This document shows positions 38,571 to 57,750 of a stretch of DNA of 64,000 nt, piece after piece. The DNA is from Novosphingobium sp. KA1 (GTDB taxonomy: Bacteria; Pseudomonadota; Alphaproteobacteria; Sphingomonadales; Sphingomonadaceae). The notes beneath the pieces are model-generated. The model saw nothing but the letters and a program-made list of their open reading frames with translations. It did not search any database and was not told the DNA's origin. The DNA lies in the NCBI RefSeq assembly GCF_017309955.1, contig NZ_CP021247.1, positions 1,117,501 through 1,181,500 of the forward strand. The letters run 5' to 3'. The translations under genes and the position numbers were made by a program. Each line of letters begins with the position of its first letter. The stretch's first letter is position 1.

Positions 38571-38644
38571 TGCCCCGTCGTCTAATGGTAAGACTACGGA
38601 TTCTGATTCCGTCTATCGAGGTTCGAATCCTCGCGGGGCATCCA
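38571..38644 (+). tRNA. tRNA-Gln (anticodon CTG)
   Basis: A full cloverleaf can be drawn. The acceptor arms are TGCCCCG and CGGGGCA, followed by discriminator T and an encoded CCA. The anticodon stem is ACGGA/TCCGT with loop TTCTGAT, giving anticodon CTG, which reads CAG. The T-arm carries GGTTCGAATCC. It has its own promoter. The 220 bases after it show no clear terminator or gene. Confidence 0.96.
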
Positions 38645-38865: not shown

Positions 38866-39633
38866 TCACGAGCCGTCGGTAATCAGCGTCCCGCCATCCA
38901 CCACCAGATTGTGCCCGGTGACAAAGGCCCCGGCATCCGATGCAAGGAAGACGGCAGCGCCTGCCACCTCCCGCGGCATGCCGGGGCGGCGCAGCGGGGT
39001 CATGGCCATGCGGCGGGCCATGAAGGCCTCGTCCGCCAGCAAGGGGCCGGACAGTTCGGTGGCGATGAAACCCGGCGAGATCGCGTTGACGCGTACGCCG
39101 CGCGGTCCCCACTCCACCGCCAGATTGCGCGCCAGCTGCGCGACGCCCGCCTTGGCAAGCGCATAGGCGTTGATGCGCCCGTTGCCCCTGAGGCCCGAGA
39201 GGCTGGAGACCAGCACTGCCACCCCGCCCCCACGCTCCGCGATTTTTGGCAGGGCCAGGTTGCAGAGCGCGACCTGACTGGTGAGGTTGATCGCCATGAC
39301 GCGGGCATAGTCAGCCATGTCGAGATCGGCAAAAGCCCCTGCCCTGCCGGTGATCCCGGCATTGCAGACCAGCACGTCCAGCCCGCCGAATTCCGCCACT
39401 GCGCGATCCACCAAGGCCGCAAGCGCCCCGTCATCGGTCACATCGCAGGGCTGCCCGGGCATGCCGAGTTCGGCAGCGACGCGCGCGGTGTCCTGCGCAT
39501 CCTCGCTGGAGATCACCACGCGCGCGCCCTGCGCGATCAGCCCCTCGGCAATCGCGCGTCCGATCCCGCGCGTGGAGCCGGTGACGATGGCGCTCCGCCC
39601 CGCGAGGTCAAACTGGCCCGAGAGGTCGACCAT
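38866..39633 (-). CDS. SDR-family oxidoreductase (catabolic cluster, left arm)
   Basis: A 255-residue classical short-chain dehydrogenase with cofactor motif TGSTRGIGRAIAEGL, NAG in VLVCNAGITGR, catalytic Ser in VLVSSLSGLRGNG, and YALAK (YxxxK). Its ending, SDAGAFVTGHNLVVDGGTLIT, is typical. An acidic or polar residue after the second strand (VVISSEDA) suggests NAD(H) or NADP(H) cannot be settled. It is the last gene of the leftward operon with the cupin and FAH-family genes and likely oxidises or reduces a hydroxy intermediate of the same route. Confidence 0.9.
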   Translation of the reverse strand: MVDLSGQFDLAGRSAIVTGSTRGIGRAIAEGLIAQGARVVISSEDAQDTARVAAELGMPGQPCDVTDDGALAALVDRAVAEFGGLDVLVCNAGITGRAGAFADLDMADYARVMAINLTSQVALCNLALPKIAERGGGVAVLVSSLSGLRGNGRINAYALAKAGVAQLARNLAVEWGPRGVRVNAISPGFIATELSGPLLADEAFMARRMAMTPLRRPGMPREVAGAAVFLASDAGAFVTGHNLVVDGGTLITDGS

Positions 39634-39635
39634 GC

Positions 39636-40184
39636 TCAGTCCTCGTTTGCCGCCGCGTTGTAGACGGGATCGACCTGTTCGGGCTTGGCCTCATCCAGCG
39701 GTACGCCGTTATGGAGGTAAGCGGGTGCCTCGATCAGGATGAAGGCGATCCGGCAGACCGCGTCGCTGGTGTTGCGCCAGAGGTGGTTGGTGCCGCGCTG
39801 GACGATGATGCCGCCCTCGCGCACGGTCGTCTTGCGGCCGTCCTCCAGTTCCAGCTCGATCTCGCCCTTCATCACCACCCCGTAGTCGATCGAGTTGGTG
39901 CGGTGCATCGGGCTCTGCTTGCCCGGCAGCATGTCCACCACGCGGATCACCGAGCCGCCTTCGAGCGTCGTGCCAGTGGGGCGTTCGCGACCTTCGGTTT
40001 CGTCGTTGTTGTCGGCAGGGACGGAGGCGGTGGTCCAGATCGTCAGGAACGAGGCATCGCCCGAGAGGATCATTTTCGTCGGCGTCACGTCTTCGGAGCG
40101 GAACACCGCGCGCCCGTTCCCGTCGTGGCCGGTGACGACACGCTGGATGGGCGGCAGGCCGGAATCGGAAAGGACTTCGCTCAT
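39636..40184 (-). CDS. Cupin-domain protein (catabolic cluster)
   Basis: A 182-residue single cupin. The first cupin motif is imperfect: MHRTNSIDYGVVMKGEIELELEDG carries one His and Asp rather than the full G(X)5HXH(X)3,4E(X)6G set. The second is VQRGTNHLWRNTSDAVCRIAF with one His. Metal ligands are therefore fewer than in active dioxygenases, and a binding or isomerase role is as likely as oxygenation. It overlaps the FAH gene start-to-stop (ATGA) and lies two bases from the SDR gene. Confidence 0.85.
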   Translation of the reverse strand: MSEVLSDSGLPPIQRVVTGHDGNGRAVFRSEDVTPTKMILSGDASFLTIWTTASVPADNNDETEGRERPTGTTLEGGSVIRVVDMLPGKQSPMHRTNSIDYGVVMKGEIELELEDGRKTTVREGGIIVQRGTNHLWRNTSDAVCRIAFILIEAPAYLHNGVPLDEAKPEQVDPVYNAAANED

Positions 40185-41125
40185 GCCTGTACAACCTTCT
40201 GTTCGATGACGCCGAACGGCGCGCGGCCGTCGGCAAGGGTTCCCTGCATGCGCACGGTATCGCCGAAGCGCATGAATTCGGTGCGCGGCGCGCCGAAATC
40301 GACCAGCTCGATGCCGCGCCGCTCGGCGATGCAGGAGGAGCCGATCTCGCGGTAGTTTGCGTTGGAGACGGTGCCCGAGCCGATCACCGTACCCGCCACC
40401 AGATCGCGCGTGGCGCAGGCGTGGGCGACCAGTTCGTGGAAGCCGTGCCCCATCGGCTCGCCATTGGCGGCGCCGAAGCGCTGGCCGTTCCAGTCCACCA
40501 AGAGGTCCATGCAGACGCGGCCACCCCGCCACTGGTCGCCCAGTTCCTCCGGCGTCACCGCAAAGGGCGCCATCGAACAGGGCGGCTTGGCCTGGACCCA
40601 GCCGAAGCCGGTCTTCATCTCCGGCCCGGCCAGCTTGCGCAGCGACCAGTCGTTGATCTGCACGATCAGGCGAATGTGCTGCATGCAGTCTTCGGCGCAG
40701 GTCCCCATCGGTACGCCGTCGACGATCACGCCGAACTCGCCCTCGAAATCGATACCGTTCTCTTCGGTAAGGAAGCGCACATCCTCGGCCGGGCCGTAAA
40801 ACTTGTCAGACGTGCCCTGATACATCAGCGGCTTGCCGGTCTTCACCGGCACGACGCCCAGCGCCTTGTCCATCAGTTCGCCGTGGCAGGCGAACGCGGA
40901 GCCATCGAGCCATTGCCAGGCACGCGGCAGCGGTGCGCGCAGCAACGCGGCGTCCAGCGCCTCGGGAAACTCCGAAATCCCGGCCAGCACCGGCGCGACA
41001 AAGGCCCAGCTTTCCATCGCCTGCTGCAGCGTATCCACCGGCGCGGGCGCAAAACGGTCGCCCTCGGGCGAAACGACGACGAGGCGCCCGTCGGGGGTGC
41101 CGTCATCGAGGGTTGCGAGGCGCAT
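40181..41125 (-). CDS. Fumarylacetoacetate hydrolase (FAH)-family protein
   Basis: A 314-residue FAH-family hydrolase. The metal-site glutamates are in [17 protein letters not shown] (E-x-E pair), with D in [15 protein letters not shown] and K in [44 protein letters not shown] gives the usual GT-x-GTG-like end. The family breaks C-C bonds in acylpyruvates or decarboxylates oxo-acids from aromatic ring breakdown. It is the first gene of the leftward catabolic operon and lies opposite the HisD-like gene across a shared control region. Confidence 0.9.
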
Positions 41126-41130
41126 GTCTT

Positions 41131-41164
41131 GGTTCTCTCCCGGAATGCTCTTTCCTTGAGAACC
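41131..41164. promoter_or_regulatory. Inverted repeat in the FAH gene leader
   Basis: GGTTCTC (41131-41137) and GAGAACC (41158-41164) are perfect complements 20 bases apart, directly upstream of the FAH start. It could be a leader hairpin or operator. Confidence 0.35.
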
Positions 41165-41202
41165 GGGCTAGCGAAGCCCTCCTGCGGCAACAACGGCATA
41201 GG

Positions 41203-41223
41203 ATCGATAGCAAGCCATCGATA
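41203..41223. promoter_or_regulatory. Operator candidate in the divergent catabolic promoter
   Basis: ATCGATA occurs twice with a 7-base gap. Because ATCGAT is itself a palindrome, the pair is both a direct and an inverted repeat. It sits midway between the two divergent operons. No regulator gene is next to the cluster. Confidence 0.5.
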
Positions 41224-41298
41224 ACATGCGATGGTCCCCGCTCGCCCCCCGGCGCTAGGTCCGGTGAAAATCACGTCACACCGGATCGGGAGAATATC

Positions 41299-42630
41299 AT
41301 GGCCACCTGGCTGAAGCGCGGCGCCACTGCCGAGGCAAAGGCAGACGCGGACCGCAAGGTTCGCGACATCGTCGAGGCGGCGCTTGCCGATATCGAGAAG
41401 CGCGGCGACGAAGCGGTGCGCGAGATGTCGATCCGGTTCGACGGCTGGGACCGCGACGACTACCGCCTCAGCCAAGCCGAAATCGACGCCTGCGTCGACA
41501 GCCTGACCCCGCAGGAACGCAAGGACATCGAGTTCGCGCAGGCGCAGGTGAAGAACTTCGCCCAGATCCAGCGCGCTTCGATGCAGGACGTGGAAGTCGA
41601 GACGCTGCCCGGCGTCGTGCTGGGCCACCGGAACATCCCTCTGAATTCCGCAGGCTGCTATGTGCCCGGCGGCAAGTATCCGCTGCTGGCCTCCGCGCAC
41701 ATGTCGGTGATCACCGCCAAGGTCGCGGGCGTGAAGCGCGTCGTCACCTGCGCCCCGCCGTTTCAGGGCCAGCCGGCGCGCGCGATCGTCGCCGCGCAGG
41801 CCATGGCCGGGGCCGATGCGATCTATGCGCTGGGCGGCATCCAGGCGGTCGGCGCCATGGCGATCGGCACGCAGAGCATCGATCCGGTCGATATCCTTGT
41901 CGGTCCCGGCAATGCCTTTGTCGCCGAAGCCAAGCGCCAGCTTTTCGGGCGTGTCGGCATCGACCTGTTCGCCGGGCCGACCGAAACCCTGATCATTGCC
42001 GACGAGATCGGCTGCGATCCCGAAATCGCCGCCACCGATATCCTCGGGCAAGTCGAGCACGGGCCGGACAGCCCCGGCGTGCTGCTGACCAATTCCGAGA
42101 AATTCGCCCGCGCCACAATGGCCGAGATCGAGCGCCTGCTGCAGATCCTCCCCACCGCCGACCATGCCCGCAAGGCCTGGGAAAACTTCGGCGAAGTGAT
42201 CGTGGCGGACAGCTACGAGGAGATGGTCAGGGTCGCCGACGAGATCGCCAGCGAGCACGTGCAGGTGATGACCGCCGATCCGGACTATTTCCTGAGCACC
42301 ATGACCAACTACGGCGCGCTGTTCCTGGGGAGCCGCACCAATGTCAGCTTCGGCGACAAGGTGATCGGCACCAACCACACGCTGCCCACGAAGAAGTCGT
42401 CGCGCTACACCGGCGGCCTGTGGGTCGGCAAGTTCCTGAAGACCTGCACCTACCAGCGCGTCACCACCGACGAGGCCTCGGCGCTGATCGGCGAATATTG
42501 CTCGCGCCTCTGCGCGCTGGAGGGCTTCGCAGGCCACGGCGAGCAGGCGAATATCCGCGTGCGGCGCTTCGGCGGGCGCAACGTGCCCTATGCCGGGCAG
42601 GCCGAACCGACGCCCGAGACGGCGGCCTGA
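41299..42630 (+). CDS. Histidinol dehydrogenase-family dehydrogenase, HpsN-like
   Basis: A 443-residue NAD-dependent, zinc-type dehydrogenase of the HisD superfamily. It keeps the NAD-binding [22 protein letters not shown] and IVGPGN-type segment [20 protein letters not shown], and the [12 protein letters not shown] loop. The region [23 protein letters not shown] differs from true HisD (which has LPTGGTARF), as in HpsN (sulfopropanediol dehydrogenase) and other catabolic relatives. It probably oxidises a terminal alcohol to an acid in two steps. The ATG at 41299 has GGGAG upstream. It heads the rightward catabolic operon. Confidence 0.88.
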
Positions 42631-42632
42631 CC

Positions 42633-43388
42633 ATGGCGATCCCGCAGACCCCGAGCCTGCGCCTTGATGGACGCCGGGCTGTGGTGACCGGCGCGGGCCG
42701 GGGCATCGGCCTCGGCGCCGCCGCCGCGCTGGCGGCGGCGGGCGCCGAGGTCACGCTGGTTGCCCGCACCTCGGGGGAGATCGAGGCGGCTGCCGCCGAG
42801 ATCGGCAATGGTGCATGCGCCGCGACGCTCGACGTTTCCGACCTCGGCGCCGTGGCCGCGTTCTTCGCGGACCGCGCGCCGTTCCACGTGCTCGTCAACA
42901 ATGCCGGCACCAACCGCCCCAAGCCGATGTGGGAGGTGAGCGAGCAGGATTACGATGCCGTGCTCGACCTCAATCTCAAGTCCGCCTTTTTCGTGGCGCA
43001 GGCCTGCGTGAAGCGGATGACAGGTACCGGCACCAGGGGCAGCCTGATCCACATGGGCAGCCAGATGGGGCATGTCGGCGGGCCGAACCGCTCGCTCTAC
43101 TGCGCCAGCAAGTGGGCGCTGGAGGGCATGAACAAGGCCATGGCGCTGGACCTTGCCCCACATGGCATCCGCTCCAACACGATCGCCCCGACATTCATCG
43201 AAACCCCGCTGACCAAACCCTTCTTCGAGGACGAAGCCTTCAAGGCCAGCGTGCTTTCGAAGATCAAGCTCGGCCGCATCGGCCAGGTGGAGGACCTGAT
43301 GGGCGCGGTGCTGTTCCTCGCCTCCGACGCCTCCGCGCTCATGACCGGCACCAGCCTTGTCGTCGATGGCGGCTGGACCGCCGAATAA
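42633..43388 (+). CDS. SDR-family oxidoreductase (catabolic cluster, right arm)
   Basis: A 251-residue classical SDR with GAGRGIGLGAAAALA, LVNNAGTNRPKPMWE, catalytic Ser in HMGSQMGHVGG and Tyr/Lys in YCASKWALEG. It ends TGTSLVVDGGWTAE. It starts two bases after the HisD-like stop. It differs clearly from the left-arm SDR, so the pathway has two separate oxidoreduction steps beyond the HisD-like enzyme. Confidence 0.91.
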   Translation: MAIPQTPSLRLDGRRAVVTGAGRGIGLGAAAALAAAGAEVTLVARTSGEIEAAAAEIGNGACAATLDVSDLGAVAAFFADRAPFHVLVNNAGTNRPKPMWEVSEQDYDAVLDLNLKSAFFVAQACVKRMTGTGTRGSLIHMGSQMGHVGGPNRSLYCASKWALEGMNKAMALDLAPHGIRSNTIAPTFIETPLTKPFFEDEAFKASVLSKIKLGRIGQVEDLMGAVLFLASDASALMTGTSLVVDGGWTAE

Positions 43389-43397
43389 TCGCCCCAA

Positions 43398-43440
43398 GCG
43401 TTTTCTAATCAGGTGGAACACCTGATGCCTCGGAAAACGC
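43398..43440. repeat. Nested palindrome inside the catabolic operon
   Basis: ATCAGGTG-GAA-CACCTGAT (8 pairs, 3-base loop) is nested in GCGTTTTC/GAAAACGC (8 pairs). It fills the only sizeable gap in the rightward operon. It could be a regulator site, an intergenic repeat or a transcript processing point. Confidence 0.7.
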
Positions 43441-43470
43441 GACAAACCAAAACTTCCCGCAGGATAGATC

Positions 43471-44634
43471 ATGTTCGAACCGTTCCCCGGAAACTACGTC
43501 TGGAACCTCGCCACCAACCTCGCGCTCGCCTGCGGGGGCAATTACGGCGAGATCGACGCGGCCAACCGCCCGATCATGGACGCGAGCAAGGCCGGCGCCG
43601 ATGCCGGCTCCGCGCAGATGTTCGACAGCTGGATCGCGGTCGCCGATCAGGTCACCGCCAATGCCCAAGGCGATGAGGCGGCCGGTTACCTGCTTTCCGC
43701 CGGCACCAAGTACTTGCGCGCCTCGGGCTATTATCTCGCGGCCGAGCGCATGCAGAGCCGCGACTATGCCCCGCGCTGGGCCGCCTATGACAAGGGGCTG
43801 GAGCTGTTCCACAAGGGCGCGAAGCTGCGCGGGCTGCATGTCGACAGGGTCGAAATCCCCTACGAGGACAGCGCCTATACCGCCATTTTTGTCCACGACG
43901 GTTCGGGCACGCCGCGCCCGACGCTGGTCTCGGTCAACGGGCTCGATTCGATGAAGGAGCAGGTCTGCATGGCGGGCCATGGCCAATCGAATCTGGAGCG
44001 GGGCATGAACACCCTGTTCGTCGACCAGCCCGGCACCGGCGAGGCGATCCGCAAGCGCGGCCTTCCCGCCGTGTTCGACGGCGAGCGCTGGGGCACCCCT
44101 GCGCTCGAATACCTGCTGACGCGCGATGACGTGATCCATGACCGGATCGGCATTTTCGGCCTCTCCTTCGGCGGCTATCACGCACCGCGCATCGCCGCCA
44201 ACGAGCCGCGCTATGCGCTCTGCGCGGTGATGGGCGCCAACCACGTCTGGGGCCGCCGCCAGCGCGAGCGCGTGGCCAACGAAGGCGAGAACCCGGTGCC
44301 GCACTACTGGGACCATGTCATGTGGGTCTTCGGCATCGAAGCCCAAAATGGGGGGCGCGACGCCTTCCTCGAATACGCCGACCGGATCACGCTCGACGGG
44401 CAGGTGGAGAAGATCCGCGTGCCCTTCCTGATCACTCACGGCGAGAACGACCGCCAGATCCCCGCCTTCAATGCGCAGCTCAGCTACGATCAGGCGGTGA
44501 ACAGCCCCAAGCGCACGCTCCGCGTCTTCACCAGGAAGGATTTCGAGGTCGAGCACTGCGGCGCCGACAACGGCACCGGCATGCGCGACTATATCGCCGA
44601 CTGGTGCGCCGAAACCTTTGCGGAAATGGGCTGA
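43471..44634 (+). CDS. Alpha/beta hydrolase of the DHPONH/FrsA-like group
   Basis: A 387-residue hydrolase with an N-terminal helical cap (about 1-130) and a C-terminal alpha/beta core. The nucleophile elbow is IGIFGLSFGGYHAPRIAA (Ser in GLSFGG, about residue 232). The acid is probably in HGENDRQIPAFNAQ and the base His in EVEHCGADNGTG. The oxyanion strand reads LVSVNGLDSMKEQ. Relatives such as 2,6-dihydroxypseudooxynicotine hydrolase break C-C bonds next to ketones. That suits a role after the HisD/SDR steps. AGGA lies six bases before the start. Confidence 0.87.
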   Translation: MFEPFPGNYVWNLATNLALACGGNYGEIDAANRPIMDASKAGADAGSAQMFDSWIAVADQVTANAQGDEAAGYLLSAGTKYLRASGYYLAAERMQSRDYAPRWAAYDKGLELFHKGAKLRGLHVDRVEIPYEDSAYTAIFVHDGSGTPRPTLVSVNGLDSMKEQVCMAGHGQSNLERGMNTLFVDQPGTGEAIRKRGLPAVFDGERWGTPALEYLLTRDDVIHDRIGIFGLSFGGYHAPRIAANEPRYALCAVMGANHVWGRRQRERVANEGENPVPHYWDHVMWVFGIEAQNGGRDAFLEYADRITLDGQVEKIRVPFLITHGENDRQIPAFNAQLSYDQAVNSPKRTLRVFTRKDFEVEHCGADNGTGMRDYIADWCAETFAEMG

Positions 44635-44639
44635 GCGCG

Positions 44640-45047
44640 ATGGCCGAATTCACCTTCCACCACGGCGGCGTCTCCGTTCCCAGTCTTGACGAGGCGATCG
44701 ACTGGTACGGCCGCGTGCTGGGCTTCACGGTCGAGAAGACGTTCTACATCGAAGCGGCCAGGTCCCGCACCGCCATGGTCCGCAAGGGCCCGCTGCGCTT
44801 CGAGATCTTCGAGGTGGAAGGCGCCGCCCCCCTCCCCGAGGACCGCCGCTCCCCGCCGCGCGATCTCAAGACCCACGGCAACAAGCACATCGCCTTCCGG
44901 GTGGAAGACCTCGAGGCCTTCCTGGCCGAGATGGAGGAGAAGCAGGCCGACGTCGCCTTTGTCGTGCGCGAGGCCTTCGGCAAGGGCTGCTTCATCCGCG
45001 ACTGCGCGGGCAACCTGATCGAATTCGTCGAGGAGCCGGACCTGTGA
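44640..45047 (+). CDS. VOC-family (glyoxalase/bleomycin-resistance fold) protein
   Basis: A 135-residue protein with two beta-alpha-beta-beta-beta units. HHGGVSVPSLDEAIDWYGRVLGF starts the first, and HIAFRVEDLEAFLAEMEE the second. It ends CFIRDCAGNLIEFVEEP. The metal-ligand pattern (His in HHGG, Glu near EIFEV, His in NKHIAF, Glu in LIEFVEE) is complete. It may be an isomerase, epimerase, extradiol-like enzyme or lyase of the cluster's substrate. It starts five bases after the hydrolase gene and overlaps the next gene. Confidence 0.88.
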   Translation: MAEFTFHHGGVSVPSLDEAIDWYGRVLGFTVEKTFYIEAARSRTAMVRKGPLRFEIFEVEGAAPLPEDRRSPPRDLKTHGNKHIAFRVEDLEAFLAEMEEKQADVAFVVREAFGKGCFIRDCAGNLIEFVEEPDL

Positions 45048-45334
45048 TCCACGAACTGGCCACACTCACCATCGACCCGGCCCGCGCCGCCGCGTTCGAG
45101 GCCGCGGTTGCCGAGGCGCGCCCGCATTTCGAGGCGGCCGGGGGGTTTGTCTCCTTCGCGCTGCACCGCTCGGTGGAGAACCCCGCGCGGTATCACCTCG
45201 TCGTCGGCTGGGACAGCGTCGAGGCCCACATGACGGACTTCCGCGAGTCCGAGGGTTTTCAGGTCTGGCGTTCGCTGGCGGGCCCGTTCTTCACGGCGCC
45301 GCCTTGCGTCGAGCATCTTGCCCAGGCGATCTGA
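45044..45334 (+). CDS. Antibiotic-biosynthesis-monooxygenase (ABM) domain protein
   Basis: A 96-residue ferredoxin-like protein with ATLTIDPARAAAFEAAVAEARPHFEAAGGFVSFALHRSVENP and YHLVVGWDSVEAHMTDF, the standard ABM fold. Such small proteins oxidise polyphenols to quinones without cofactor or act as isomerases. The start is GTG, overlapping the VOC stop (GTGA). It closes the rightward operon. Confidence 0.88.
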   Translation: MIHELATLTIDPARAAAFEAAVAEARPHFEAAGGFVSFALHRSVENPARYHLVVGWDSVEAHMTDFRESEGFQVWRSLAGPFFTAPPCVEHLAQAI

Positions 45335-46301: not shown

Positions 46302-46805
46302 ATGGCCGAGCCGAAGCGCGCTTCGTCCGCTGCTGCCCCGTGCAAGCGTCGGACGAGGCTCAATGCCGATCTTGCCAGGAGCGAGGACAAGCTGAACCGC
46401 CACTGGCGCACCGCCTTCCTCGCCGTGCTGGCGGAAACCTCGAATGTCAGCGCCGCCGCCCTCGCCGCCGGGGTCCACCTCAGCCGCCCCTACAAGCTGC
46501 GCCGCAATGACCCCGACTTCGCCCGCGACTGGCGCGGCGCCCTGCTGGAAGGATACGAGAACCTCGAACTGGAACTGCTCCACCGGTTGCGCTTCGGCGA
46601 AACCAAGGACGGCGAGATGAGGTTCGACAACGCCAATGCCCTGCGCCTGCTCGGCCTCCACCGCGAGACCGTGGCACGCGAGCGGGCCATGCGCGAGGAC
46701 GAGGACATCGGCGCCGTGCGCGCCTCGCTCCAGGCCAAGATCGCGCAGCTGCGCGAACAGGTTATCGCCCGCCGCGCGGCAGAGGAAGGCCCCCAGGATG
46801 GCTGA
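46302..46805 (+). CDS. GTA terminase small subunit-like protein (gp1-like)
   Basis: A 167-residue protein. WRTAFLAVLAETSNVSAAALAAGVHLSRPYKLRRNDPDF is a helix-turn-helix DNA-binding region typical of terminase small subunits. It is followed by charged helices (LLHRLRFGETKDG) and a C-terminal coiled-coil-like stretch (RASLQAKIAQLREQV). It would choose or grip DNA for packaging. ATG at 46302 is preferred (AGGA eight bases before) over ATG at 46293. The stop overlaps the large subunit start. Confidence 0.8.
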   Translation: MAEPKRASSAAAPCKRRTRLNADLARSEDKLNRHWRTAFLAVLAETSNVSAAALAAGVHLSRPYKLRRNDPDFARDWRGALLEGYENLELELLHRLRFGETKDGEMRFDNANALRLLGLHRETVARERAMREDEDIGAVRASLQAKIAQLREQVIARRAAEEGPQDG

Positions 46806-48126
46806 GGCCGACCCGCTGGACTGGCTGACCGAGGCCGAAAGCGGGGAGATCGAGGCGTTCATGGCCAGCCTCGACCGGAACGAGCGCCGCGAATGGCGCT
46901 GGGACTGGTCGATCCGGGCGCGGCCCTCGCAGCTCGCCCCGGCCGGCGACTGGCGCGTCTGGCTGGTCATGGCCGGGCGCGGCTTCGGCAAGACCCGCTG
47001 CGGCGCCGAATGGGTGCGCCTTGTCGCCGAGGAGAATCCCGATGCCCGCATCGCGCTGGTCGCCGCCAATCTGGGCGAGGCGCGCTCGGTCATGGTCGAG
47101 GGCGAGAGCGGACTGCTCGCGGTCGGTGCGCCGTGGCGCCGCCCGGTGTTCGAACCCTCGCTCAGGCGGCTGACCTGGCCGGGCGGCGCGCAGGCCACGC
47201 TCTATTCGGCCGCCGAGCCCGAATCGCTGCGCGGCCCCCAGCACAGCCACGCCTGGTGCGACGAGATCGCCAAGTGGGACAATGCCGCGGGGCGGGCCAC
47301 GTCGGCCTGGGACAACCTGCTGATGGGCCTGCGCCTCGGCCGCGATCCGCGCGTGGTCGCCACCACCACGCCGCGCAGCATGCCGCTGGTCACGCGGCTG
47401 CTGGCGGATAGCGCCTCGGGCGAGGTCGTCGTCACGCGGGGGAGCACCTTCGACAATGCCGCCAACCTGCCCGCGCGCTTTCTCTCGGCAATGCGCCGCA
47501 ATTTCGGCCGCAGCCTGCTCGGCAGGCAGGAGATCGACGGCGAGCTGATCGCCGACATCGAGGGCGCGCTGTGGAGCCGCGCCTTGCTGGAACGCTGCCG
47601 CGAGGCGCGCGCGCCTGCATGTTGCCGCGTGGTCGTCGGCGTCGATCCGCCCGCTTCTGCGGGCGGAGACGCCTGCGGCATCGTCGTCGTCGGCCTCTCG
47701 GCGGACGGCAACGCCCATGTGCTGGCCGATGCCTCGGCCGAGAAGGCCGGCCCCGAGCGCTGGGCCCGCGCCGTCGCCGAGGCGGCAGCGGCCTGGTCCG
47801 CCGACCGCGTCATCGCCGAGGCCAACCAGGGCGGCGCCATGGTCGCCTCGGTGCTGCGCGCGGCGGAAGTTTCGCTGCCGCTGCGGCTGGTCCACGCCAG
47901 CCGCGGCAAAGTCGCCCGCGCCGAGCCCGTGGCCGCGCTCTACGAGGCCGGACGCGTGCGCCATGCCGGACTGTTCCCGGCGCTGGAAGACGAGATCTGC
48001 GGGCTTGTCGCCGGTGGTTCCTACCAGGGACCGGGGCGCTCGCCCGACCGCGCCGACGCGCTGGTCTGGGCCCTCACCGAGCTGATGCTCGGCAAGGCTT
48101 CGGCCCCGCAAGTGCGCTTGCCCTGA
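46798..48126 (+). CDS. GTA terminase large subunit / DNA packaging motor (gp2-like)
   Basis: A 442-residue ATPase-nuclease. The Walker A region is VMAGRGFGKTRCGAEWV (about residues 50-66), and WCDEIAKWDN supplies the Walker B DE. The C-terminal nuclease has VVVGVDPPASAGGDACG, IAEANQGGAMV and SPDRADALVWALTELM, with the Asp and Glu ligands intact. It drives DNA into the head. It overlaps gp1 by eight bases. The longer upstream frame is a shadow of gp1. Confidence 0.93.
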   Translation: MAEADPLDWLTEAESGEIEAFMASLDRNERREWRWDWSIRARPSQLAPAGDWRVWLVMAGRGFGKTRCGAEWVRLVAEENPDARIALVAANLGEARSVMVEGESGLLAVGAPWRRPVFEPSLRRLTWPGGAQATLYSAAEPESLRGPQHSHAWCDEIAKWDNAAGRATSAWDNLLMGLRLGRDPRVVATTTPRSMPLVTRLLADSASGEVVVTRGSTFDNAANLPARFLSAMRRNFGRSLLGRQEIDGELIADIEGALWSRALLERCREARAPACCRVVVGVDPPASAGGDACGIVVVGLSADGNAHVLADASAEKAGPERWARAVAEAAAAWSADRVIAEANQGGAMVASVLRAAEVSLPLRLVHASRGKVARAEPVAALYEAGRVRHAGLFPALEDEICGLVAGGSYQGPGRSPDRADALVWALTELMLGKASAPQVRLP

Positions 48127-48181
48127 AACACGAACCTTGCGCGGCTCCGGCCGCTCCCTCCCGCCTGGAAAGGAACCCCAC

Positions 48182-49354
48182 GTGTCCTTCATCGATACGC
48201 TCGTCGCCGCCTTCAAGGGCGAGAGTGCCCGCGTGCCTTTGGCGCGGGGGCCCGCCTCACCCTGGTTCTTCGCCGAAGGCGACGGCGGGCGAGCCCCCTT
48301 CGAATATGCCTCGGCGGTGCGCCGGGCCTATCTCGAGAATCCCGTCGCCCAGCGCGCGGTGCGGCTGGTGGCCGAAGGGATCGCCGGCGCCCCGCTCAAG
48401 GCCGCCGATCCGAAGCTCGCCGCGCTCATCGGCGAGACCAGCGCCGGGCAGTCGCTGCTGGAAACGCTCGCCTGCCACCTGCTGCTGCACGGCAATGCCT
48501 ATGTGCAGGTGCTCAAGGACGCGCGCGGGCGCCCGGTCGAACTCTTTGCGCTGAGGCCCGAGCGCGTGACCGTCGTCGCGGGCGAGGACGGCTGGCCCGC
48601 CGCCTATGCCTATGACGTGGCGGGACGGCGCATGACCATCCCGCTGCACGGCGAGGATGCCTCGCCCAACGTGATCCATATCCGCCACTTCCACCCGGCG
48701 GACGATCATTACGGTGCCGGTTGCCTTGCCGCCGCCGACGAGGCGATCGCCACCCACAATGCCGCCGCGCGGTGGAACCGCCAGCTTCTCGAAAACGCCG
48801 CCCGCCCCTCCGGCGCGCTGGTCTACGAGACCGGGGACGGCGATACCCTCACCCCCGAACAGTTCGACCGGCTCAAGACCGAACTGAGCCAGGCCTATGC
48901 CGGATCGCACAACGCCGGGCGGCCGATGCTGCTGGAAGGCGGGCTCAAGTGGCAGGCCATCGCGCTGACGCCTGCCGACATGGACTTCGCCACGCTCAAG
49001 GCCGCCGCCGCCCGCGACGTGGCGCTGGCCTTCGGGGTGCCGCCGATGCTGCTCGGCCTGCCGGGCGATGCCACCTATGCCAATTACCGCGAGGCCAACC
49101 GCGCGCTCTGGCGGCTGACGCTGCTGCCGCTGGCCGCCAAGATCTTCGCGGCGCTCTGCGAAGGACTGGCGCCGTGGTTCCCCGAGGCCTGCCTTGCCAT
49201 CGACCTCGATCAGGTCCCCGCGCTGGCCGAGGACCGCGAGCGGCTCTGGTCGCAAGTGAGCGCCGCCGATTTCCTCGATGGCGACGAGAAGCGCGCGCTG
49301 CTCGGCCTGCCCGAACGCCCCCATTCCGGGAAGGAAGTGGAGAACAAATCATGA
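48182..49354 (+). CDS. GTA portal protein (gp3-like)
   Basis: A 390-residue HK97-type portal. It has FEYASAVRRAYLENPVAQRAVRLVAEGIA near the start, LACHLLLHGNAYVQVLKDARGRPVEL, and FGVPPMLLGLPGDATYANYREANRALW, all portal hallmarks. It forms the dodecameric ring through which DNA enters the capsid. The start is GTG at 48182 with AAGGA just before; the preceding 55-base gap has no other feature. The stop overlaps the next gene (ATGA). Confidence 0.93.
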   Translation: MSFIDTLVAAFKGESARVPLARGPASPWFFAEGDGGRAPFEYASAVRRAYLENPVAQRAVRLVAEGIAGAPLKAADPKLAALIGETSAGQSLLETLACHLLLHGNAYVQVLKDARGRPVELFALRPERVTVVAGEDGWPAAYAYDVAGRRMTIPLHGEDASPNVIHIRHFHPADDHYGAGCLAAADEAIATHNAAARWNRQLLENAARPSGALVYETGDGDTLTPEQFDRLKTELSQAYAGSHNAGRPMLLEGGLKWQAIALTPADMDFATLKAAAARDVALAFGVPPMLLGLPGDATYANYREANRALWRLTLLPLAAKIFAALCEGLAPWFPEACLAIDLDQVPALAEDRERLWSQVSAADFLDGDEKRALLGLPERPHSGKEVENKS

Positions 49355-49659
49355 ACCAGAAGGACATGCTTGCCGGTCTGCTGGCACAGGCGGCCTCCGA
49401 AGGCGGCGATCTGGTGACCCTGCGCGCCGTGGTCGAGGAAGCGAGCGAAGTCGGCGCGCGGCGGATGCTGTCGCGGATCGGCCTCGACGATGCCACCGCG
49501 CCCGGCGACCTCACCGAACTGCGCGAACTGCTGCAGGCCTGGCGCGACGCCAAGTCCAGCGCCCGGGCCGCCGCCATCGGCTGGTTTGTGCGCGCGGTGC
49601 TGGCCGCGCTGCTGCTTGGCCTGGCGGTGCGCTGCGGCACCACGGAGCTGCTGCGTTGA
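49351..49659 (+). CDS. Small GTA-cluster protein with a C-terminal membrane helix
   Basis: A 102-residue protein between portal and protease, the place of RcGTA g3.5. The N-terminal two-thirds are soluble and helical (MNQKDMLAGLLAQAASEGGD). Residues about 78-95 (FVRAVLAALLLGLAVRCG) are one membrane helix. It resembles the small DUF6127-type proteins I recall from sphingomonad GTA clusters; this is a memory-based match. It overlaps the portal gene by four bases and the protease gene by four. Confidence 0.75.
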   Translation: MNQKDMLAGLLAQAASEGGDLVTLRAVVEEASEVGARRMLSRIGLDDATAPGDLTELRELLQAWRDAKSSARAAAIGWFVRAVLAALLLGLAVRCGTTELLR

Positions 49660-50057
49660 GCCGCGACTTGCGCTTCGCTGGCTATGCCGCGCTGTTCGAT
49701 CGGCGCGATTCCGGCCGCGACACCATCCGCCCCGGCGCCTTTGCCCGCACCCTGGCCGAGCGCCGCGATCCGCTGCCGCTCTACTGGCAGCACCGGCCAG
49801 ACGTGCGCATCGGCTGGGTCGAGACCGCTGCCGAGGACGCGCGCGGCCTGCGGGTGGTGGCCAGGATCGACAATCCCGACGGCGCCGCCGGCCTCGCGCT
49901 CAGGCGCGGCACCGTCAACGGCCTGTCGTTCGGCTACCGCGCGCGCTCCAGCCGCCAGGATGCGGCGGGACGCGAACTGCTCGACCTCGAACTGTTCGAA
50001 GTCAGCCTCGTCACCCACCCGATGCAGCACGGCGCGCGGGTGCACCTCGTTTCCTGA
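49656..50057 (+). CDS. GTA prohead protease (gp4-like, TTG start)
   Basis: A 133-residue HK97 prohead protease. It starts at TTG (SRDLRFAGYAALFDRRD), overlapping the previous stop as TTGA, with GGAG nine bases before. The catalytic His is in PLYWQHRPDVRIGWV, and the Ser in GTVNGLSFGYRA. ELFEVSLVTHPMQHGARV is the typical end. It matures the capsid protein, whose N-terminal scaffold (about 100 residues) it would remove. Confidence 0.9.
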   Translation: MSRDLRFAGYAALFDRRDSGRDTIRPGAFARTLAERRDPLPLYWQHRPDVRIGWVETAAEDARGLRVVARIDNPDGAAGLALRRGTVNGLSFGYRARSSRQDAAGRELLDLELFEVSLVTHPMQHGARVHLVS

Positions 50058-50129
50058 CTCTGCCTTCCCGTCCTCCCGACAGTTTTCCGCCGCCCGTCCG
50101 GCGGCTCCCAAGCGAAAGGTGAATGCCCC

Positions 50130-51269
50130 ATGGAATCCACGAACCCGGTCGAAGCGCTCGACTCCTCGTTCGATCTTGTCACCCGCCAGGACGCCACCGA
50201 AGCCGCCGTCGAAGCGCTGCGCGGCGATGTCGAGGACGTGAAGTCGCGGCTCGACCGCGTCGGCCGCGCCGCCGCCCGCCCGCTGATCGAGGGCGCCGCC
50301 ACCGCCGCCTCGGTCGAAGTGAAGGGCTTTGTCGACGGCTACTTGCGCATGGGCCGCGAGACCGAGCTGAAATCGATGTCGGGCCTCGTCGCCGCGGACG
50401 GCGGCTATGCGGTCCCGCGCGAGATCGACGCGCTGATTTCCAGCCGCCTCAAGAACGTCAGCCCGATCCGCTCGATCGCCCAGGTCGTGCAGACCGGTAC
50501 GGCCGGTTATCGCAAGCTGATCAACACCGGCGGCACCGCCTCGGGCTGGGTCAGCGAGACCGGCGCCCGCGTCGAGACCGCCAGCCCCAGCCTTGCCGAG
50601 ATCGTGCCGCCCTCCGGCGAACTCTACGCCAATCCCTCGGCAAGCCAGGCCATGCTCGACGATGCCATGTTCGACATCCAGACCTGGCTGGCGGACGAGA
50701 TCGCGATGGAATTCGCCCGCGCCGAAGGCGCCGCCTTCATCACCGGCACCGGCACCAACCAGCCCAAGGGCTTTCTGGCCGCTCCCACCGCCGCGACGGC
50801 TGACGGCGCCCGCGCGTTCGGCACCCTGCAGTTCCTCGTCTCCGGCAATGCCGGCGGCTTCGACACCGCGCCGGAACTGAAACTGATCGACCTTGTCCAT
50901 TCACTGAAGGGCGGCCACCGCCAGGGCGCCAGCTGGGTGATGAACTCCAAGACGCTGGCGGTGGTGCGCAAGCTCAAGGCCGCCGACGGCTCGTTCCTGT
51001 GGCAGCCCGGGCTGATGGAAGGCCAGCCCAACCGCCTGCTGGGTTATCCGGTGGTCGAGGCCGAGGACATGCCCGATGTCGCCGCCAATGCCTTCCCGAT
51101 CGCCTTCGGCAACTTCCGCGCCGGCTACCTGATCACGGAGCGCAGCACGACCTCGATCCTGCGCGATCCCTATACCAACAAGCCCTTCGTCAACTTCTAC
51201 GCAACGAAGCGGATCGGCGGGCAGGTGCTCGATTCGGACGCGATCAAGCTGCTCAAGATCTCGGCCTGA
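50130..51269 (+). CDS. GTA major capsid protein (gp5-like, HK97 fold)
   Basis: A 379-residue HK97-fold capsid protein. Residues about 1-90 are the helical, charged delta (scaffold) domain. The E-loop and spine follow in YAVPREIDALISSRLKNVSPIR. The P-domain and A-domain carry FARAEGAAFITGTGTNQPKGFL and MNSKTLAVVRKLKAADGSFLWQP. It ends VNFYATKRIGGQVLDSDAIKLLKIS. It forms the DNA-holding head. Two inverted repeats follow the gene. Confidence 0.95.
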   Translation: MESTNPVEALDSSFDLVTRQDATEAAVEALRGDVEDVKSRLDRVGRAAARPLIEGAATAASVEVKGFVDGYLRMGRETELKSMSGLVAADGGYAVPREIDALISSRLKNVSPIRSIAQVVQTGTAGYRKLINTGGTASGWVSETGARVETASPSLAEIVPPSGELYANPSASQAMLDDAMFDIQTWLADEIAMEFARAEGAAFITGTGTNQPKGFLAAPTAATADGARAFGTLQFLVSGNAGGFDTAPELKLIDLVHSLKGGHRQGASWVMNSKTLAVVRKLKAADGSFLWQPGLMEGQPNRLLGYPVVEAEDMPDVAANAFPIAFGNFRAGYLITERSTTSILRDPYTNKPFVNFYATKRIGGQVLDSDAIKLLKISA

Positions 51270-51281
51270 CGGAAGCGGCAT

Positions 51282-51366
51282 GCCTCGGGGGGCCCTCCTC
51301 CCTCCCCGAGGCCCCGCTTTCACGCAGGGGGTGGTCTGGTGCCGCCCCTCACCGGGCCGCCCCCTG
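51282..51366 (+). other. Two stem-loops after the capsid gene
   Basis: GCCTCGGGG (51282-51290) pairs with CCCCGAGGC (51304-51312), and CAGGGGG (51325-51331) with CCCCCTG (51360-51366). They are in the largest gap within the head genes. They may end part of the transcripts or protect the capsid mRNA's 3' end, raising capsid over connector proteins. Confidence 0.5.
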
Positions 51367-51396
51367 CGCCTGTTTTCCTCCTGATCGGAGACACCC

Positions 51397-51945
51397 ATGC
51401 ACCGGGTCATCCTTACGCCGGCCACCCTGCCGTCCTCGGCGCTTGCCGAGCTCAAGCAGTGGCTCGGCATCACCACCGCGCGCGACGACGCTCCGCTTGC
51501 GCAGCTCCTTGCGAGCACACTCGACATGTTCGAGGCCTTTACCGGCGTCATGCCGCTCGCCGCCTCGTGCGAGGAAACGCTGCCTGCCTACCCCGGCTGG
51601 AACGTACTGGCCACGCGTCCGGTTCAGGCCATCGCCGCGCTCGACGGAATTGCCGCCGACGGCACTCGCTTTCCGCTTTCCTCCGGCATGTACGAGGTCG
51701 ACCTCGGTGCCGATGGCAGCGGCCGGGTGCGGCTGCCGATGCCCGCCGCAGCCAGCCGCGTCGCCGTCCGCTTCACGGCGGGCCTCGCCGCCAACTGGGA
51801 TGGCCTGCCCGATGCCCTGCGCCACGGCATGATCCGCCTTGCCGCCCACCAGCACCGCGAACGCGAGAACGAGGGCGCTTCGCCGCTGCCGCCCGCCTCG
51901 GTCGCCGCGCTCTGGCGGCCCTGGCGCCGGATGCGGCTGGCATGA
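51397..51945 (+). CDS. GTA head-tail connector/adaptor (gp6-like)
   Basis: A 182-residue connector. LAELKQWLGITTARDDAPLAQLLASTLDMFEAFTG is the helical N-terminal part of the phage gp6/phiE125 gp8-type family. VEDL-like beta strands follow (GMYEVDLGADGSGRVRLPMP), and LRHGMIRLAAHQHRERENEG is the usual C-terminal helix. It would sit below the portal ring. Its stop overlaps the next start (ATGA). Confidence 0.87.
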   Translation: MHRVILTPATLPSSALAELKQWLGITTARDDAPLAQLLASTLDMFEAFTGVMPLAASCEETLPAYPGWNVLATRPVQAIAALDGIAADGTRFPLSSGMYEVDLGADGSGRVRLPMPAAASRVAVRFTAGLAANWDGLPDALRHGMIRLAAHQHRERENEGASPLPPASVAALWRPWRRMRLA

Positions 51946-52136
51946 GCAGCGGCCTGATCGAGACCCGGGTGGACAAGGCCTTCGACGCCCTCGCCCGGCG
52001 CCTCACCGCCCGCGCCGCCGCCATCGCGACTGCCGTTACCGCCGCCAACGCCGAATCGCAGGCCCTCGCCGCGCGCGGGGACAAAAGCCGGTGGCGCCGC
52101 GCGGATCTCCTCTGGCCGCTTTTCGCGAAAGGATAG
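51942..52136 (+). CDS. Small basic/Ala-rich protein in the GTA gp7 position
   Basis: A 64-residue protein, MSSGLIETRVDKAFDALARR then a helix of Ala-Thr-rich sequence (AAAIATAVTAANAESQALAA) and a basic Trp-containing end (SRWRRADLLWPLFAKG). It stands where RcGTA has g7 (head closure), but is much shorter. It could be a reduced stopper or a species-specific part. It is coupled to gp6 by overlap and lies three bases before gp8. Confidence 0.65.
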   Translation: MSSGLIETRVDKAFDALARRLTARAAAIATAVTAANAESQALAARGDKSRWRRADLLWPLFAKG

Positions 52137-52139
52137 TCC

Positions 52140-52529
52140 ATGGAAATCGCCCTTCGCGCCGCGCTGATCGACTGGCTTGCCGCCGATCCCGTGCTGGCCG
52201 CCGAACTCAACGCGGTGGCCGAGGAAGCCCCCGCGCGCACCAGCCTGCCCTGGCTCGCCATCGCTTCGAGCGCGAGTGCCGACTGGAGCTGCAAGACCGC
52301 TCCCGGCCGCGAGATCCGCGTGGCGCTGGAGCTCCATTGCCGGGGCGATGCCCCCGATGCCGCGGGAACCCTCGTCCGTGGAATCGAAGCGCGGGTCGAG
52401 AGCCTGCCGCGCACGCAGCCCGCGTTCCAGATCGTCACCGCCCAGTTCCTGCGCGCCCGCGCCGAGCAGCGCGGCGAAAGCCGCCGCGCGATCCTGCTCG
52501 AATACCGCTTCCGCCTCATGGCGGCCTGA
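52140..52529 (+). CDS. GTA tail terminator/completion protein (gp8-like, DUF3168)
   Basis: A 129-residue DUF3168-type protein. MEIALRAALIDWLAADPVLAA at the N-terminus, PGREIRVALELHCRGDAPDAA in the middle and LRARAEQRGESRRAILLEYRFRLMA at the end fit the family. It would cap the tail tube and join it to the head. A REP-like palindrome lies between it and the tail tube gene. Confidence 0.88.
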   Translation: MEIALRAALIDWLAADPVLAAELNAVAEEAPARTSLPWLAIASSASADWSCKTAPGREIRVALELHCRGDAPDAAGTLVRGIEARVESLPRTQPAFQIVTAQFLRARAEQRGESRRAILLEYRFRLMAA

Positions 52530-52542
52530 CCCTCAGGCAATC

Positions 52543-52611
52543 CTTCGACAAGCTCAGGATGAGCGGAGCTGGGTGCCTGCTCTCCTCCCGCTCAGGCTGA
52601 GCCTGTCGAAG
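52543..52611. repeat. REP-like palindrome inside the GTA operon
   Basis: CTTCGACAAGCTCAGGATGA (then GCGG) and the inverted partner (CCGC then TCAGGCTGAGCCTGTCGAAG) face each other 21 bases apart. This is the CTTCGACA-AGCTCAGG repeat commonly scattered between genes in many bacteria. The pair sits in the only gap between tail genes gp8 and gp9. Confidence 0.85.
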
Positions 52612-52647
52612 CCTCACCGATCCAGCCCCGATCACAGGAGACATTCC

Positions 52648-53055
52648 ATGCCCGCCCAGAAAGGCAGCGCCTTCCTTCTCAAGATCTCCGACGGCGCAAC
52701 GCCCGCCGTCTATCAGACCGTCGCCGGTCTGCGCACCACGCAGATGTCGGTCACCAGCGATACTGTCGTCATCACCAGCAAGGACAGCGGCGGCTGGCGC
52801 GAACTGCTGTCGGGCGCGGGCGTGCGTTCGGTTTCGGTCAGCGCTGCGGGAATTTTCCTCGGCAGCGCCGCCGAAGCCCGCATCCGCACCAATGCCATGG
52901 CGGGCACGCTTGCCGACTACGAACTGAGCTTCGAGGACGGCGACAAGCTGCGCGGCAAGTTCCTCGTCCAGCGGCTGGACTACGCCGGCGACTTCAACGG
53001 CGAGCGCAATTACACGATCCAGCTCGAAAGCTCCGGCACGGTCGCATCGGCATGA
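52648..53055 (+). CDS. GTA major tail (tube) protein (gp9-like)
   Basis: A 135-residue tube protein of the phage TP901-1/RcGTA g9 group. It starts MPAQKGSAFLLKISDGATPAVY and has VAGLRTTQMSVTSDTVVITSKDSGGWRELL, then LADYELSFEDGDKLRGKFLVQRLDYAG. It stacks as hexamers in the tail tube. ATG at 52648 has AGGAG ten bases before. It ends overlapping the gp10-like start. Confidence 0.93.
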   Translation: MPAQKGSAFLLKISDGATPAVYQTVAGLRTTQMSVTSDTVVITSKDSGGWRELLSGAGVRSVSVSAAGIFLGSAAEARIRTNAMAGTLADYELSFEDGDKLRGKFLVQRLDYAGDFNGERNYTIQLESSGTVASA

Positions 53056-53405
53056 CGGAGCTCGGGATGACGGAACTCGGGATGACGGGGGCCGCGTCTC
53101 CGGCCAATGGCCTGCGCGGCGAGGCCATGCTCGCCATCGGCGATGCCTCCCACCGGCTGCGACCGACCTTCACCGCGCTGGTGGCCGCCGAAGAGGAACT
53201 CGGCCCGCTTTTCGCCCTCGTCGAGCGGGCCGGGGCGGGGCAGCTGCGCCTTTCGGAGATGGCGGCACTGTTCTGGCACTGCCTCGATGCACAGGGCCGA
53301 CCGCCACGAGAGGCGGTAGGCGAAGCCGTCCTCGCCGCCGGGCTTGCCGCCTGCGCCGCGCCGCTGCGCACTTTGCTCGGCCAGATTCTCAAGGGCGCAG
53401 GATGA
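53052..53405 (+). CDS. GTA gp10-like tail protein (chaperone family), triplicated start
   Basis: A 117-residue protein of the GTA gp10 family. NGLRGEAMLAIGDASHRLRPTFTALVAAEEELGPLFALVERA and LRLSEMAALFWHCL are its conserved parts. The beginning, MTELGMTELGMTGAAS, comes from a 15-bp unit (ATGACGGAGCTCGGG) repeated so that three in-frame ATGs follow one another. The second is preceded by a GGAG inside the repeat. The true start may be any of the three. It probably assists tape-measure or tube assembly. Confidence 0.85.
   Translation: MTELGMTELGMTGAASPANGLRGEAMLAIGDASHRLRPTFTALVAAEEELGPLFALVERAGAGQLRLSEMAALFWHCLDAQGRPPREAVGEAVLAAGLAACAAPLRTLLGQILKGAG
53067..53096 (+). repeat. Tandem duplication of the gp10-like start region
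   Basis: The 15-bp unit starting at 53052 (ATGACGGAGCTCGGG) recurs at 53067 with one change (GAGCTC to GAACTC), and a third partial copy begins at 53082. Confidence 0.75.
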
Positions 53406-53602
53406 GCGGGGAGCGGTTCGCTTCGGCAGCCCTTGCCCTTTGCGGTCTCGCCGCGCGCACGCTCGGCTGGCGCCCCGGCGAGTTCTGGGCAGCCACCCCC
53501 GCCGAACTCGCCGCCGCCCTTGGCCTGCCCGCCGTCACCGACGCCCCCGGAATCGACCGCGAGACCCTCCAGAAACTGATGGAAAACGACCATGAGCGAT
53601 GA
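53402..53602 (+). CDS. GTA tail assembly chaperone (gp10.1-like)
   Basis: A 66-residue protein: MSGERFASAALALCGLAARTLGWRPGEFWAATPAELAAAL. The GWRPGEFWxATPAEL core is typical of the small TAC proteins between the tail tube and tape measure genes. It overlaps the gp10-like stop (ATGA), and its end overlaps the tape measure start by eleven bases. Confidence 0.9.
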   Translation: MSGERFASAALALCGLAARTLGWRPGEFWAATPAELAAALGLPAVTDAPGIDRETLQKLMENDHER

Positions 53603-54164: not shown

Positions 54165-54181
54165 CATACCGGAGAATTCCC

Positions 54182-57351: not shown

Positions 57352-57749
57352 CCGGTGACGAGATAGCTCGCGCCGCGTCGGCCCTCGTGGGCACGCCGTT
57401 TCGTCTGCATGGCCGCGATCCCCGCTGCGGGCTCGACTGTGTCGGCGTGCTGGCTCTCGCCATCGGCAGGACTGCCGCCTTCCCCAACGGCTATGCCCTG
57501 CGCGGAGGAAACCTGGAGGCGATCGAGCGCCTGGCATCGGCGCTGGGGCTGGTACCAGCCGGGGGCAAGGTCCTCCCCGGAGACGTGCTGCTGTTCCGCC
57601 CCGGCCCCGCCCAGTTCCATTTCGCGATCGCCGCGAAGGGGAACCTCATCGTTCACGCCCACGCCGGTCTGCGCCGGGTGGTCGCAGGCCCCTGCCCCGA
57701 CCACTGGCCCCTGATCGGCCATTGGCGCGTGCAAAATCCGAGGAATTGA
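57348..57749 (+). CDS. GTA cell-wall peptidase (gp14-like, NlpC/P60)
   Basis: A 133-residue NlpC/P60 peptidase. The catalytic Cys is in CGLDCVGVLALAIG, the His in AQFHFAIAAKGNLIVHAHAG, and the fold is otherwise complete. It would open peptidoglycan during DNA delivery. It has no signal peptide, as expected for a particle component. Confidence 0.93.
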   Translation: MTGDEIARAASALVGTPFRLHGRDPRCGLDCVGVLALAIGRTAAFPNGYALRGGNLEAIERLASALGLVPAGGKVLPGDVLLFRPGPAQFHFAIAAKGNLIVHAHAGLRRVVAGPCPDHWPLIGHWRVQNPRN

Positions 57750-57750
57750 A

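Follow-up and report, generated by a model that had tools for sequence, protein, structure and literature searches.

The stretch analyzed here comprises 64,000 nucleotides of the Novosphingobium sp. KA1 genome sequence (contig NZ_CP021247.1, positions 1,117,501 to 1,181,500) and is referred to below as the window. At positions 38866-45334 it carries a divergent cluster of eight intact open reading frames, three reading leftward and five rightward from a control region of 173 base-pairs (bp). The GC content of the cluster (0.669) is that of the 64 kilobase (kb) window as a whole (mean 0.669). A prediction made from the sequence alone (the original prediction) had named the eight genes by family and proposed that they serve in polyphenol or polyketide catabolism. 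Pfam agrees with every one of these labels. The analysis described here suggests that the cluster probably forms the lower half of a regulon in two parts, which would serve to break down flavonoid-type compounds by A-ring meta-cleavage as in the fde and ifc pathways, the upper half (module A) lying elsewhere in the genome. The features of the cluster, in window coordinates, are:

38866-39633, minus strand: SDR1, short-chain dehydrogenase, last gene of the left arm (Pfam adh_short_C2)
39636-40184, minus strand: cupin, IfcD-like by context (Pfam Cupin_2)
40181-41125, minus strand: FAH-family hydrolase with an FAA_hydro_N_2 domain, first gene of the left arm (Pfam)
41204-41235, plus strand: conserved, operator-like 32-bp block TCGATAGN5CATCGATANNATGCGATGGT in the control region (spacer alignment)
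41299-42630, plus strand: HpsN-like protein of the histidinol dehydrogenase (HisD) family, 443 amino acids, first gene of the right arm (Pfam, PDB match)
42630-43388, plus strand: SDR2, short-chain dehydrogenase (Pfam)
43471-44634, plus strand: ABH, alpha/beta hydrolase of the DHPONH/Ayg1/AntI fold with a helical lid (Pfam, sequence, structure model)
44640-45047, plus strand: small VOC-fold protein of the glyoxalase/epimerase type (Pfam Glyoxalase_4)
45044-45334, plus strand: small ABM-domain protein, accessory (Pfam)

The nearest relative of ABH is DHPON hydrolase (DHPONH; PDB 2jbw). The predicted structure of ABH (mean pLDDT 90.6) has 2jbw as its top Foldseek match (5.1e-19), and the fold neighbours include AntI, Ayg1 and Wdyg1, all acting on polyketides. 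ABH shares with this family the lid-bearing alpha/beta hydrolase fold and a Ser-Asp-His triad, S232, D327 and H362, which is invariant across 28 aligned sequences. Fold and triad thus uphold the earlier call of a C-C bond hydrolase, as a prediction from sequence and model. The same fold serves other chemistry too: the VIA-align list of fold matches for ABH puts SMU_737 ahead of DHPONH and FrsA near it, so that the fold alone is no proof of C-C hydrolysis. The cupin, whose start ATG overlaps the stop of the FAH gene, has 3es1 as its nearest PDB match (1.7e-92) and two invariant histidines, H92 and H132 (numbered from the aligned row in an alignment of 10 sequences).

The HisD-family protein gives its best PDB match with a sulfopropanediol 3-dehydrogenase, HpsN, the (R)-DHPS dehydrogenase (388 bits; the best true HisD reaches 264 bits). 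It retains Q251, H254, E319, H320, D353 and H413, which we take to be the positions of the E. coli HisD site; the catalytic residues are thus kept in a sequence nearest to HpsN. This closest structural relative could mark the cluster as one for sulfonate or sugar-acid catabolism, and a weak similarity of the FAH protein to diketo-deoxyrhamnonate hydrolase, as well as a CmpA/NrtA-family transporter set a few kb from one relative of the cluster, point in the same direction. The FAH match amounts to 31 bits, however, against a family cut-off of 500 bits, no enzyme is named for sulfonate or sugar-acid use in four annotated neighbourhoods, and aromatic monooxygenases and VOC dioxygenases recur in the neighbourhoods. 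The genomic context is one of aromatic ring cleavage, which argues against a sulfonate substrate, and we regard this explanation as highly improbable.

Two described pathways resemble the cluster in gene content. In the fde pathway of Herbaspirillum seropedicae SmR1, as presented in the sections covered of PMC11069340, PMC11303751, PMC8552027 and PMC9781135, the A ring of naringenin is hydroxylated by a flavin monooxygenase and then dioxygenated (FdeC); FdeE works with a Rieske protein, FdeD (PMC8552027, in part). In the ifc cluster of Variovorax sp. V35, according to the covered sections of PMC11069340, the flavin monooxygenase IfcA 8-hydroxylates isoflavones, ring cleavage is assigned to the glyoxalase-family protein IfcB, and the cupins IfcD1 and IfcD2 act on 2-hydroxy-5-(4-hydroxyphenyl)-4H-pyran-4-one. 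The same sections assign no gene to the step from X2 to X3, and liken the hydrolase and cupin loci of ifc to H. seropedicae fde genes. The flavin monooxygenase, VOC ring-cleaving dioxygenase, DHPONH-like hydrolase and aryl-pyranone cupin of ifc are all families of the two-part system of KA1. The two differ in that no HpsN-like dehydrogenase is named in the sections of PMC11069340 covered, and in that the KA1 genes, unlike the ifc cluster, lie at two loci.

Operons with fde/ifc gene content were found on public plasmids of Burkholderia anthina from sorghum rhizosphere and root exudates (locus L111), Sphingomonas R1 from tomato rhizosphere (L114) and Diaphorobacter (L132), the last in the order hydrolase-VOC-ferredoxin-monooxygenase-MFS-cyclase-cupin-FAH-epimerase. 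Bradyrhizobium elkanii from soybean nodules (L130) carries a similar operon with no annotated hydrolase in the stretch viewed. Sequence identities tie the cluster to these operons: ABH is 44-45% identical to the hydrolases of the B. anthina and Sphingomonas R1 operons, the FAH protein 52-58% identical to their FAH proteins, the cupin 34-37% identical to their cupins (IfcD itself lying outside the comparison) and the ABM protein 51% identical to one near the Burkholderia operon. When used as a query, the Sphingomonas R1 cupin matches a single place in the KA1 genome, the cluster cupin. The operons viewed in Burkholderia, Sphingomonas R1 and Diaphorobacter show no annotated gene of the HisD family.

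The guess of polyphenol or polyketide catabolism stands. By contrast, the statement that the gene set corresponds to no described pathway fails at the family level: hydrolase, cupin and FAH recur in these operons alongside a flavin monooxygenase and a VOC dioxygenase, the gene content being that of fde (naringenin) and ifc (isoflavone). The match to a described pathway, which had been named as grounds for abandoning the original prediction, exists for the type of pathway and not for the exact gene set. No paper assigning this set was found among titles and abstract beginnings of the open-licence PMC literature, the term fde is absent from the main text of PMC4440368, and no protein named Fde or Ifc occurs among the 120 matches listed per query from a 5.8-billion-protein set. 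Two Variovorax plasmid stretches contain cupin, FAH and epimerase genes and not the full ifc cluster. An origin of the genes in carbofuran-phenol degradation was considered and dropped because the set occurs across many strains.

The monooxygenase and the dioxygenase that the eight genes lack are found in module A. In many related sphingomonads, the eight-gene set adjoins this second module, which comprises a flavin monooxygenase, an extradiol ring-cleaving dioxygenase, a FAD oxidoreductase, reductases, LysR and HxlR regulators, a TonB receptor and a sulfatase. On plasmid pNL2 of N. aromaticivorans DSM 12444, in the stretch SARO_RS17975-18075, the cluster lacks an ABM gene; behind it come two VOC dioxygenase-like genes, flavin monooxygenases, the FAD oxidoreductase and short-chain dehydrogenases, and the set is completed by regulators of the HxlR and LysR types, an epimerase, a sulfatase and a TonB receptor. 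The dioxygenase gene there is SARO_RS18010. In KA1, no module A lies beside the cluster. A similar set is found on contig 1 (C1) at 1,529,168-1,544,825, about 370 kb away (matched homologs at C1:1,534,955-1,544,829); it has genes for uptake proteins, for a sulfatase, for the flavin monooxygenase and the extradiol dioxygenase, and for a regulator of the LysR type. A second genome of the same species (G005; 99% identical hydrolase; coordinates matching strain IC081, locus L011) shows the same split, its two copies of the control motif described below being 371 kb apart. Thus, the cluster is not the complete unit it had been taken for but half of a larger one. Among the genes of the KA1 module are one for a sulfatase-like protein and two for MFS transporters; the natural substrates may include sulfated phenolics.

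Module A provides the group A flavin monooxygenase of an fde/ifc-type pathway. The KA1 gene (C1:1531208-1532347) specifies a protein 79% identical to the pNL2 monooxygenase, itself 37-42% identical to the monooxygenases of the comparator operons; jointly, the pNL2 and Blastomonas homologs range from 37 to 43% against those of B. anthina and Sphingomonas R1. The pNL2 FAD oxidoreductase is 50% identical to its Burkholderia counterpart, and the pNL2 epimerase 36-46% identical to those of B. anthina and Sphingomonas R1. Module A also provides a VOC-superfamily extradiol dioxygenase with an intact active site: H155, H218 and E275 are invariant in 10 aligned sequences, as are H198, H255 and Y264, positions whose meaning we assume from BphC. 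This two-domain enzyme is not to be confused with the small VOC protein of the cluster, which is far shorter. The FAD oxidoreductase resembles phytoene dehydrogenases and, in one relative (locus L091, 20069-21888), is paired with a 77-amino-acid protein without a Pfam match; the two families occur in 41 of 80 loci and also in the Burkholderia operon region.

Conservation was assessed by scanning genomes with ABH, which returned 99 related loci; the best 80 were kept, with fetched stretches of at most about 21 kb, and families were counted with reference proteins from the cluster and annotated relatives. The hydrolase occurs in all 80 by construction, since the loci were picked with it, and the other counts are lower bounds because the loci are of unequal length and contig ends truncate some of them: extradiol dioxygenase 60, small VOC protein 57, cupin 50, FAH 47, epimerase 43, HisD 42, SDR2 42, phytoene-dehydrogenase-like FAD oxidoreductase 41, SDR1 38 (at 45% identity or more), flavin monooxygenase 38 and ABM 29. 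Either the extradiol homolog or the monooxygenase is present in 67 of the 80. Gene neighbours are also kept: FAH and cupin lie on the same strand within 150 bp in 31 of the 42 loci having both, SDR2 adjoins HisD on the same strand in 34 of 39, and the small VOC gene directly follows ABH in 38 of 57. The search of other genomes that had been recommended thus finds all eight families within the fetched stretch in 16 loci, not always contiguously, and the divergent FAH-HisD layout in 22. Nothing supports a quinone-forming role for the ABM protein, as had been suggested.

Some relatives join the two types of system. In Parahaliea (L051), a HisD-SDR-hydrolase-VOC run of the window type (84, 74, 75 and 68% identical to the KA1 cluster) is followed directly by a VOC dioxygenase, a ferredoxin and a monooxygenase (69, 47 and 53% identical to Burkholderia). 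In another locus (L058), VOC dioxygenase, ferredoxin and monooxygenase genes lie on the opposite strand near a hydrolase of 73%.

The separated halves in KA1 are linked by a sequence motif. Alignment of the FAH-HisD spacers from 22 relatives and KA1 revealed the 32-bp block listed above, a conservation in keeping with the earlier proposal that the two arms share one control region. A weak match (18 of 25 specified bases) lies just before the module A dioxygenase gene, and a 27-bp core, TCGATAGN8CGAN4ATGCG, was derived from the cluster site and the dioxygenase site. The 5.78 Mb KA1 genome contains only two perfect core sites, 385 kb apart: one at window position 41204, the other at C1:1,543,666, about 90 bp before the dioxygenase gene. 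Further matches number one at one mismatch (C1:973200) and nine at two; the full 32-bp motif, allowing up to three mismatches, finds the cluster site and no second site in the genome.

In 84 relative loci, the core gave 51 matches at up to two mismatches, against none for the reversed pattern. As read from the listing, 37 of these fall in the control region of the cluster, before the HisD gene or, in loci lacking it, before the hydrolase gene; six of the 37 overlap another match, being reverse-strand readings of one and the same place. Another 12 lie immediately before the dioxygenase gene, and the remaining 2 are elsewhere. The genus was sampled with 59 genomes, KA1 included, of which 13 carry a window-type hydrolase (at least 84% identity), sites being counted anywhere in the genome, whatever the gene context. 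Sites with at most one mismatch are present in all 13 and in 13 of the 46 others. Perfect sites occur in 8 of the 13 versus 1 of the 46 (Fisher p 5e-6, a guide only because the genomes are related). In one genome (G057) two motif sites lie 6.3 kb apart. The pattern suggests that the motif is a putative operator and that the two halves may be co-expressed; by linkage, the promoter of the module A monooxygenase would belong to the same regulon.

These data bear on the idea that the eight genes form a self-contained pathway that would turn a polyphenol side chain into acids and leave the ring uncleaved, with the proximity to module A in relatives being incidental. The KA1 cluster does stand apart from module A, beside a tRNA-Gln gene, and no obvious ring-cleaving oxygenase is found among its genes. 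Yet the motif is common to the cluster and the ring-cleavage module and has been kept after their separation, and the adjacency of the two is repeated in other genomes. Such independence seems to us very unlikely.

Under the two-part regulon reading, the pathway would proceed as follows. The module A monooxygenase would hydroxylate the A ring beside an existing hydroxyl group, and the dioxygenase would open the ring to yield an acyl-pyranone. ABH would then cut the C-C bond between acyl chain and pyranone, releasing oxaloacetate (from 5-hydroxyflavonoids) and an aryl-hydroxypyranone, which the cupin would open and decarboxylate to an aryl dicarbonyl. Finally, the HpsN-like dehydrogenase and the short-chain dehydrogenases would adjust aldehyde, alcohol and ketone groups while the FAH protein would cleave the remaining acylpyruvate or beta-diketone. 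A single operator motif would switch on both halves together, with the LysR protein of module A as the probable regulator. The ifc intermediates published in the covered part of PMC11069340 agree by formula with this scheme. The sequences themselves show which genes are present, how these are conserved and how they are linked in relatives, as well as the shared motif, the hydrolase fold with its catalytic residues and the extradiol active-site residues; the substrate class, each reaction, the operator role of the motif and the identity of the regulator we infer from them.

A number of observations weigh against this reading. Disruption of the DHPONH-like hydrolase gene of the ifc cluster left daidzein degradation unaffected (PMC11069340, sections covered). 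A possible reason is that daidzein has no 5-hydroxyl group, which would create the hydrolysable acyl group. A Burkholderia query for the FdeD-type ferredoxin, a component of fde in the covered parts of the literature, gave no match in the KA1 stretches searched (module A stretches L109/L110, L009 and the 64-kb window, the rest of the genome being unsearched); such a ferredoxin is present in 2 of the 80 relative loci. The link to the characterised Fde and Ifc enzymes is drawn from gene content, gene order and protein family, not from the sequences of those enzymes. The dioxygenase of module A is 23-30% identical to those of the comparator operons. No extradiol homolog lies within the fetched stretch in 20 of the 80 loci, and relatives of the cluster occur in marine gammaproteobacteria, where flavonoids are less obvious. 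As for the motif, the core was trimmed after the second site had been seen, so that the other genomes alone are independent tests. A reversed control pattern gave 2 matches at up to two mismatches in KA1, versus 12 for the core, and 7 matches at up to one mismatch, in 7 of the 59 genomes, versus 40. An fde operon sensu stricto, as in H. seropedicae, was rejected as a classification of the cluster because no ferredoxin was found in the stretches searched.

KA1 has a second, more fde-like cluster on contig 2, at about 1.066-1.071 Mb. Its monooxygenase, VOC protein and hydrolase are 71, 69 and 82% identical to those of Sphingomonas R1, its cyclase is 76% identical to that of Burkholderia and its FAH protein 65% identical to the FAH of the window cluster; no cupin match was found in it. 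In the genus sample, a hydrolase of the 43-47% type is also present in 11 of the 13 genomes with a window-type hydrolase, versus 12 of the 46 others. This cluster could handle the true flavonoids, leaving the two-part regulon to degrade some other phenolic polyketide (stilbene, xanthone, anthraquinone, coumarin, phlorotannin or another acylated polyhydroxyarene). The co-occurrence of the two hydrolases, the distance of the module A dioxygenase from those of the comparator operons and the polyketide enzymes among the fold neighbours of ABH are consistent with such a division of labour. Against it, fde/ifc-type operons have all of the FAH, cupin, epimerase, monooxygenase and ABM families in common with the regulon, and the Parahaliea locus joins window-type genes to a Burkholderia-like VOC-ferredoxin-monooxygenase run. 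We consider another polyketide substrate rather unlikely, though less so than the alternatives above, and retain flavonoid-type compounds as the probable substrates of the regulon.

Other features of the window were noted. A tRNA-Gln gene (CTG) at 38571-38644 adjoins the end of the left arm; this site may be a point of entry of the cluster. Between SDR2 and ABH, at 43397-43453, lies an interspersed palindromic repeat, GCGTTTTC..AATCAGGTG GAA CACCTGAT..GGAAAACGC, which folds into a two-tier hairpin and matches 16 other places in the genome by our own count; at the same position, two relatives (L012 and L013) have a spacer of just about 28 bp. Further downstream, 46636-59946 contains a cluster of the gene-transfer-agent type (terminase-like protein, HK97 portal and capsid, Rcc01695-type distal tail, baseplate hub), which also partially matches the megatron family. 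An mmgR/suhB small RNA scores above the Rfam gathering score on the minus strand at 16945-17022.

The type of pathway, A-ring meta-cleavage as in fde and ifc, is known; what appears new is a diverged version of it with a split but jointly marked regulon. More tentatively, we suggest that the KA1 genes might represent an undescribed second branch of bacterial A-ring meta-cleavage for flavonoid-like compounds, possibly distinguished by an extradiol dioxygenase longer than, and distant from, those of fde/ifc-type operons, by an HpsN-like dehydrogenase, by release of oxaloacetate from the phloroglucinol A ring via an acyl-pyranone through a DHPONH-type hydrolase, and by a regulon torn into two loci about 370 kb apart with a shared operator. 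In the covered part of the open-licence literature, genes for aerobic flavonoid breakdown by A-ring cleavage have been described in very few bacteria. On the present reading, Novosphingobium and Sphingobium, with N. aromaticivorans DSM 12444 among them, would join the bacteria that have this type of pathway. The reading offers a candidate reaction for the DHPONH-like hydrolase, together with an explanation for the silent knockout of the ifc gene, and a motif that may be used for finding further members.

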